A DNA stretch of 53,461 bases. Source: Pyrodictiaceae archaeon (GTDB taxonomy: Archaea; Thermoproteota; Thermoprotei_A; Sulfolobales; WANQ01). The DNA is taken from the NCBI GenBank assembly GCA_015521735.1, contig WANQ01000017.1, positions 1 through 53,461 on the forward strand, read 5' to 3'. The notes below the pieces were generated by a model. The model made no database searches. It saw nothing but the letters and a program-made list of their open reading frames with translations, and was not told the origin of the DNA. Position 1 is the stretch's first letter. Every line of letters starts with the position of its first letter. A program made the translations under genes and the position numbers. Positions 15,820-31,947 of this stretch are shown piece after piece.

Positions 15820-16215
15820 ATGAGGCTTACTTTAACCCTAATACTATTAACATTATTATCGGCATCCATACTATTAATAGCATATAGTTTATCTAGTACA
15901 CAAATACTGCATGTAATAGCAGAGAGCAATACTAATGCAACTAATAATACTACAGCCATAAATATAACACAAAAAGTAATTGATAATGAAAAGAAAATAG
16001 AGGATTTATCAAAAAGAGTATCACAGCTAGAATCAACTATGAACGGCGTAAATGAAAAACTAGACACCATAGAGTCAAGGCTTACATTAATATACCATGT
16101 CTCTGTTGCAGCACTAATAGTAAGTATTGTAGCATTAATAGCAGTAATAGCTGTAGCATTAACATATAGGCAACGTAAGGAGAAGAAGAAAATAGCTGGA
16201 AAAATGAGGAAATAG
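15820..16215 (+). CDS. Small surface or membrane protein: signal helix, coiled coil, C-terminal membrane helix
   Basis: The N-terminal hydrophobic stretch (LTLTLILLTLLSASILLIAYSL) is followed by an Asn/Thr-rich linker with glycosylation sites. A heptad-patterned helix comes next (VIDNEKKIEDLSKRVSQLESTM and on to about residue 88). A second membrane helix (VAALIVSIVALIAVIAVAL) and a strongly basic tail (RQRKEKKKIAGKMRK) end the protein. The coiled coil would lie outside and could oligomerise with the preceding gene's product. The family is unknown. It continues the same-strand cluster after 98 bases. Confidence 0.6.
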   Translation: MRLTLTLILLTLLSASILLIAYSLSSTQILHVIAESNTNATNNTTAINITQKVIDNEKKIEDLSKRVSQLESTMNGVNEKLDTIESRLTLIYHVSVAALIVSIVALIAVIAVALTYRQRKEKKKIAGKMRK

Positions 16216-16303: not shown

Positions 16304-16353
16304 TCAGTATTTGCCGTCTTCATCACTTTATCAGAGCACAGACTTATCATCAC
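16304..16353 (-). ncRNA. C/D box sRNA (2'-O-methylation guide)
   Basis: On this strand the boxes are exact and evenly spaced. C is GTGATGA, followed by a 12-base guide (TAAGTCTGTGCT), D' CTGA and a 4-base spacer. C' GTGATGA is followed by a 12-base guide (AGACGGCAAATA) and D CTGA. The 50-base core is the classic archaeal size. The short D'-C' spacer suits the symmetric box C/D RNP with L7Ae, Nop5 and fibrillarin. The RNA begins about 11 bases after the stop codon of the upstream membrane-protein gene on the same strand, so it may be processed from that gene's 3' UTR. I cannot name the target. The sites to search are the complements AGCACAGACTTA and TATTTGCCGTCT. Confidence 0.85.
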
Positions 16354-16363
16354 ATGACCTCGT

Positions 16364-16783
16364 TTAGGGATATGGTATAGGTAGGGGTTGTATTATACCT
16401 ATTTCAACTAATATTATAGCTACAGCCGTGTATACAGCTGATACGACAGCATATTTAAGAAGTGTTAGCCAAGTAAGGCGGGGTTTACCCTTAACAACAA
16501 TTTCAGTACCAGTATGCATTAATACAAAGCCAAGCACATTGGTCATGAGGTAGGAAGCAGCAAATGCTGGAGCAAATAGATCCGGGTTAAGTATTGAAGC
16601 TATACTAGCAGCAACATAAGCAATAGGTATATTAACAAATAAGTCATTCCACCATGAAGCAGGTGATAGAATATAACCTATAAACGCAATAATACTACCA
16701 CCAGCAAACCTCCAATTAAATAACCTCTTAGCAATACTAGTAATTCTCCCTAAAACATTATTAACAGCTTCAGCCAAATCCAC
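16364..16783 (-). CDS. Small multi-helix membrane protein of unknown function
   Basis: After a short amphipathic N-terminus (LAEAVNNVLGRITSIAKRLF) the protein has about four hydrophobic segments (near residues 29-45, 50-68, 70-95 and 110-130). It contains the pattern GYILSPASWWNDLFVNIPIAY, which recurs in archaeal membrane proteins of unknown role. The start is GTG 16783. The gene's end is immediately followed by a C/D box sRNA on the same strand. No catalytic motif is visible. Confidence 0.65.
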   Translation of the reverse strand: MDLAEAVNNVLGRITSIAKRLFNWRFAGGSIIAFIGYILSPASWWNDLFVNIPIAYVAASIASILNPDLFAPAFAASYLMTNVLGFVLMHTGTEIVVKGKPRLTWLTLLKYAVVSAVYTAVAIILVEIGIIQPLPIPYP

Positions 16784-31894: not shown

Positions 31895-31947
31895 GTGATG
31901 AAAAGGTGGGAGCCGAGCAATAAATGATGAGTAAGGCTGAGCGCTGA
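31895..31947 (+). ncRNA. C/D box sRNA (2'-O-methylation guide)
   Basis: Box C GTGATGA is followed by an 11-base guide (AAAGGTGGGAG) and a relaxed D' box CCGA. After a 7-base spacer, C' ATGATGA is followed by a 13-base guide (GTAAGGCTGAGCG) and an exact D box CTGA. The 53-base core is the usual archaeal size. It lies between two minus-strand genes but runs on the plus strand, with its own TATA box upstream. The D' box departs from CTGA by one base, which is common for D'. The guide complements to search are CTCCCACCTTT and CGCTCAGCCTTAC. Confidence 0.75.

Follow-up and report, generated by a model that had tools for sequence, protein, structure and literature searches.

The window, by which we mean the whole stretch of 53,461 nucleotides of contig WANQ01000017.1 from a Pyrodictiaceae archaeon that was analysed, contains a predicted C/D box sRNA on its minus strand. 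The features of this locus are as follows:

15820 to 16215, plus strand: convergent gene for a coiled-coil protein whose C-terminal segment is membrane-like
16304 to 16353, minus strand: body of the C/D box sRNA, from box C to box D
16304 to 16307, minus strand: box D, CTGA
16308 to 16319, minus strand: D guide AGACGGCAAATA, 12 nt, predicted target UUUGCCGU in 23S rRNA (U at about E. coli position 392)
16320 to 16326, minus strand: box C', GTGATGA
16327 to 16330, minus strand: D'-C' spacer, TAAA
16331 to 16334, minus strand: box D', CTGA
16335 to 16346, minus strand: D' guide TAAGTCTGTGCT, 12 nt, predicted target in 23S rRNA (C at about E. coli position 413)
16347 to 16353, minus strand: box C, GTGATGA
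16364 to 16783, minus strand: co-directional upstream gene for a 139-aa membrane-like protein, possible source of a precursor transcript

Read on the minus strand from 16353 to 16304, the elements follow one another as GTGATGA-12 nt-CTGA-TAAA-GTGATGA-12 nt-CTGA, which gives 50 nt from box C to box D and two guides of 12 nt each. The initial annotation had reported exact C/C' and D/D' boxes, two 12-base guides and a 4-base spacer, and each of these was recovered on reading the sequence. Its placing of box C closely behind the stop codon of a protein gene is likewise correct, a gap of 10 nt (16363-16354) separating box C from the TAA at 16366-16364. Under a first-order Markov model, with loose spacing allowed, perfect C/D'/C'/D arrangements are expected by chance 7.9e-6 times in the window and 3e-4 times in the 2.03-Mb genome, as against one observed in the window, in agreement with the earlier judgement that a chance arrangement was very improbable.

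The locus shows RUGAUGA (C and C') and CUGA (D and D') in the order C-D'-C'-D, and both its guides and its total size lie within the ranges of archaeal C/D sRNAs (guides of 10-12 nt, about 50-70 nt in total; PMC7994747). Archaeal C/D families of Rfam (sR17, snoPyro_CD and sR14) match exactly 16304-16353, all below their gathering scores: sR17 (RF01144) scored 26.0 bits where 36 are required, and snoPyro_CD (RF00095) 21.6 where 45 are. For these two families it is chiefly the boxes, together with the end of the D' guide, that produce the full-length match, whereas the guides are unlike, so that the sRNA of the window belongs to another guide family. With the sets known from Sulfolobus, Pyrobaculum, Ignicoccus and Nanoarchaeum it shares (i) the boxes, the guide lengths and the compact size of about 50 nt, (ii) a double guide whose predicted sites lie within 100 nt of each other, which is typical of double guides (PMC7994747), and (iii) the lack of a clear promoter, together with a position near a coding gene's 3' end (PMC7994747, PMC3491384). 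Nothing basic sets it apart from them, although its guide pair was found in only 2 of the 115 genomes of the order. Judged by its sequence, the locus is thus an ordinary double-guide archaeal C/D box sRNA gene, that is, one of a known kind.

In the 2.03-Mb genome, the half pattern C-D'-C' was found at six distinct places, while a reversed-pattern control gave none. In all six there follows a second guide, 12-13 nt long, and then an exact box D, which indicates that the genome carries a set of C/D sRNAs to which the window locus belongs; since a strict pattern probably missed others, the set comprises at least six. Other members of the set served as positive controls against the rRNA of relatives. 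Three of them fit pairs of 23S sites, at about E. coli positions 785 and 804 (L072), 2611 and 2634 (L071), and 121 and 83 (L076), and a fourth, L075, fits 16S at positions 657/689 of L058. Several of these sRNAs thus match closely spaced conserved rRNA sites, which validates the way in which targets were sought. L072 and L075 lie at a greater distance from coding genes. The remaining one, L073 (G000:C34:52772, minus strand), is complete and shares sequence with the 3' end of a reading frame; the scan of relatives' rRNA gave no clear target for it. Elsewhere in the window, between two genes of the minus strand, lies another C/D-like arrangement, one box of which is imperfect (31895-31947, plus strand; GTGATGA-11-CCGA-7-ATGATGA-13-CTGA); the rRNA of relatives offered no convincing target for it.

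A DNA search with the whole sRNA found no relative, and an orthologue came to light only when a pattern of guide plus box, with 2 mismatches tolerated, was searched for in the 115 genomes of the order. Matches fell in the window and in G003 alone, the latter a genome from another genus of the same family, and an independent search with the second guide returned the same two places. The G003 sRNA reads GTGATGA GAAGTCGGTGCT CTGA AAAATAATAG ATGTCGA GAACGGCAAAAA CTGA. The guide cores GTCxGTGCT and ACGGCAAA are common to both RNAs and stand in the same order, while the spacer and box C' are altered; such retention of both guides is as expected if selection acts on the guides. Conservation as an RNA gene is therefore seen through one orthologue among 115 genomes.

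Covariance models gave no 23S or 16S match in the genome itself. BLAST recovered only the 3' part of its 23S gene, at the end of contig C15, the target segment being missing from the assembly. None of the family's four genomes has this segment, and targets were for this reason predicted on relatives from the order. The 3' part of the 23S gene that is present (L082; G000:C15:21226-22684, minus strand) is interrupted by about 780 extra bases, perhaps an rRNA intron, between the equivalents of positions 2701 and 2713 of the L018 23S.

In the 23S rRNA of relatives the guides single out a pair of sites that lie 22 nt from each other in its 5' part, which we take to be domain I. Methylation is predicted on a U at about E. 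coli position 392 for the D guide and, downstream of it, on a C at about position 413 for the D' guide. The choice of sites was examined in the 23S of 12 relatives and assessed with 4000 shuffled guide pairs, each scored for its best pair of nearby sites. The G003 pair reached 39.0 at positions 489 and 511 of L027, a score equalled by none of the 4000 shuffles (mean 24.2, sd 2.3, maximum 35.0), and the equivalent sites were the best for these guides in 9 of the 12 relatives. For the window's guides the same two sites were the best in L027, with a score of 30.0 that 58 of the 4000 shuffles reach, and again in L022, L024 and L026, while in 8 of the 12 relatives the pair scored best at other sites. 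As the two sRNAs are homologous, the result for the window is not independent of that for G003; what the window's guides show is that the target predicted for G003 is still readable in them. Complementarity across the fifth nucleotide upstream of D and D' is accordingly supported by relatives' 23S, strongly for the G003 guides and moderately for those of the window.

Neither of the two guide-target strings has an exact 12-nt match in the rRNA of relatives, and the tRNA targets that the initial annotation had also contemplated did not materialise: a scan of 30 tRNA loci of the genome with their flanks (some untrimmed; 11 further tRNAs lay outside the scan) yielded no convincing site, the best score, 17.5, falling outside the tRNA itself. 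A candidate D' site at position 2292 of the L017 23S was dropped, as it fits the window guide and not that of G003.

At the two paired sites, the D guide forms 8 continuous base pairs with the commonest form of its target. The D' guide pairs along GCAC, meets one internal mismatch and then resumes pairing. This mismatch lies beside the predicted methylated C, where the guide expects an A and all relatives' rRNA examined have C or U, which makes the D' target less certain than the D target. It also lends some weight to a reading in which the sRNA is real and its D' guide has drifted, so that this guide would have no target, or another one, and the D guide alone would act on 23S; orphan guides are indeed common, amounting to 28% in Pyrobaculum (PMC7994747). 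Against such drift, what remains of the D' guide still fits the site beside the D target, with the same geometry as in G003, for which the D' target GGCACCGACTTC of G019 pairs with all 12 nt of the guide (one G-U included), and the rRNA of the organism itself may have the matching A. We therefore regard loss of the D' target as the less probable course, though one that deserves to be kept in mind.

The genes around the sRNA bear on where its transcript might come from. No Pfam or NCBIfam family was found for the 139-aa membrane-like protein encoded upstream, and its relatives occur in Omnitrophota, Nitrospira, Woesearchaeota and methanogens. According to the initial annotation, the sRNA might be cut out of the 3' UTR of this gene and so link a membrane-protein mRNA to rRNA methylation. 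Excision from a longer precursor is plausible, and there would be nothing unusual in it: among the archaeal C/D sRNA genes of six model species, only about 20% have a TATA-like motif, 25% overlap the 3' end of a gene, others are separated from a coding gene by less than 25 nt, and maturation requires the internal boxes only (PMC7994747), a picture of genomic placement that holds for Nanoarchaeum as well (PMC3491384). The proposed link found no support. In G003 the orthologous sRNA is preceded by a phosphoesterase gene in divergent orientation and followed, after 20 nt, by an HD-domain gene, the shared neighbour being a nearby homologue of the coiled-coil protein on the other side (41% identity over 94 aa). 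G001 and G002 have relatives of the membrane gene, yet no such sRNA follows these. The link to the membrane gene is thus not conserved and calls for no special explanation; on the genomes compared, the association is positional only, a common and evolutionarily loose arrangement. That the level of the sRNA reports on or regulates the membrane-protein gene, as the 10-nt gap behind the stop codon and the lack of a clear promoter might suggest, is accordingly very improbable, the more so as the arrangement is common in archaea (PMC7994747) and L071, in the same genome, begins 6 nt behind an unrelated stop codon. A functionless chance arrangement of boxes, with 8e-6 expected per window, is contradicted by the orthologue carrying both guides and by the complementarity of the guides to rRNA, and its likelihood is negligible.

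In RNAs of this class, L7Ae, Nop5 and fibrillarin bind to a k-turn and a k-loop, which arise from the C/D and C'/D' pairs. The initial annotation had taken the locus for a C/D box methylation guide, which is supported by the repertoire in the same genome, the conserved orthologue and the paired target site in the 23S of relatives. Together with the boxes, these observations lead us to favour, with a probability of about 0.88, a double-guide C/D sRNA that would direct two 23S methylations, at about positions 392 and 413, and would probably derive from the transcript of the upstream gene. In this scheme, the D guide would pair with its site in the 5' part of the 23S rRNA and bring about 2'-O-methylation of the U, and the D' guide, pairing 22 nt further downstream, would do so for the C. 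The RNA would probably form the 3' portion of the upstream transcript and then be trimmed back to its box core, which is protected; a weak promoter belonging to the sRNA itself might also supply the transcript.

The predicted 23S region falls outside the reported methylation hotspots, in which it departs from the archaeal sets considered above, and in a domain for which a lower density of methylation is described (PMC4644070). It is conceivable, if rather doubtful, that the organism's own 23S has the base matching the D' guide; guide and rRNA would then have changed together, at a site outside the known hotspots. The retention of the sRNA while neighbouring genes change agrees with the view that such genes live off the surrounding transcription. 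Overall, an uncultured archaeal family gains with this locus one guide RNA for which a concrete pair of targets is predicted.
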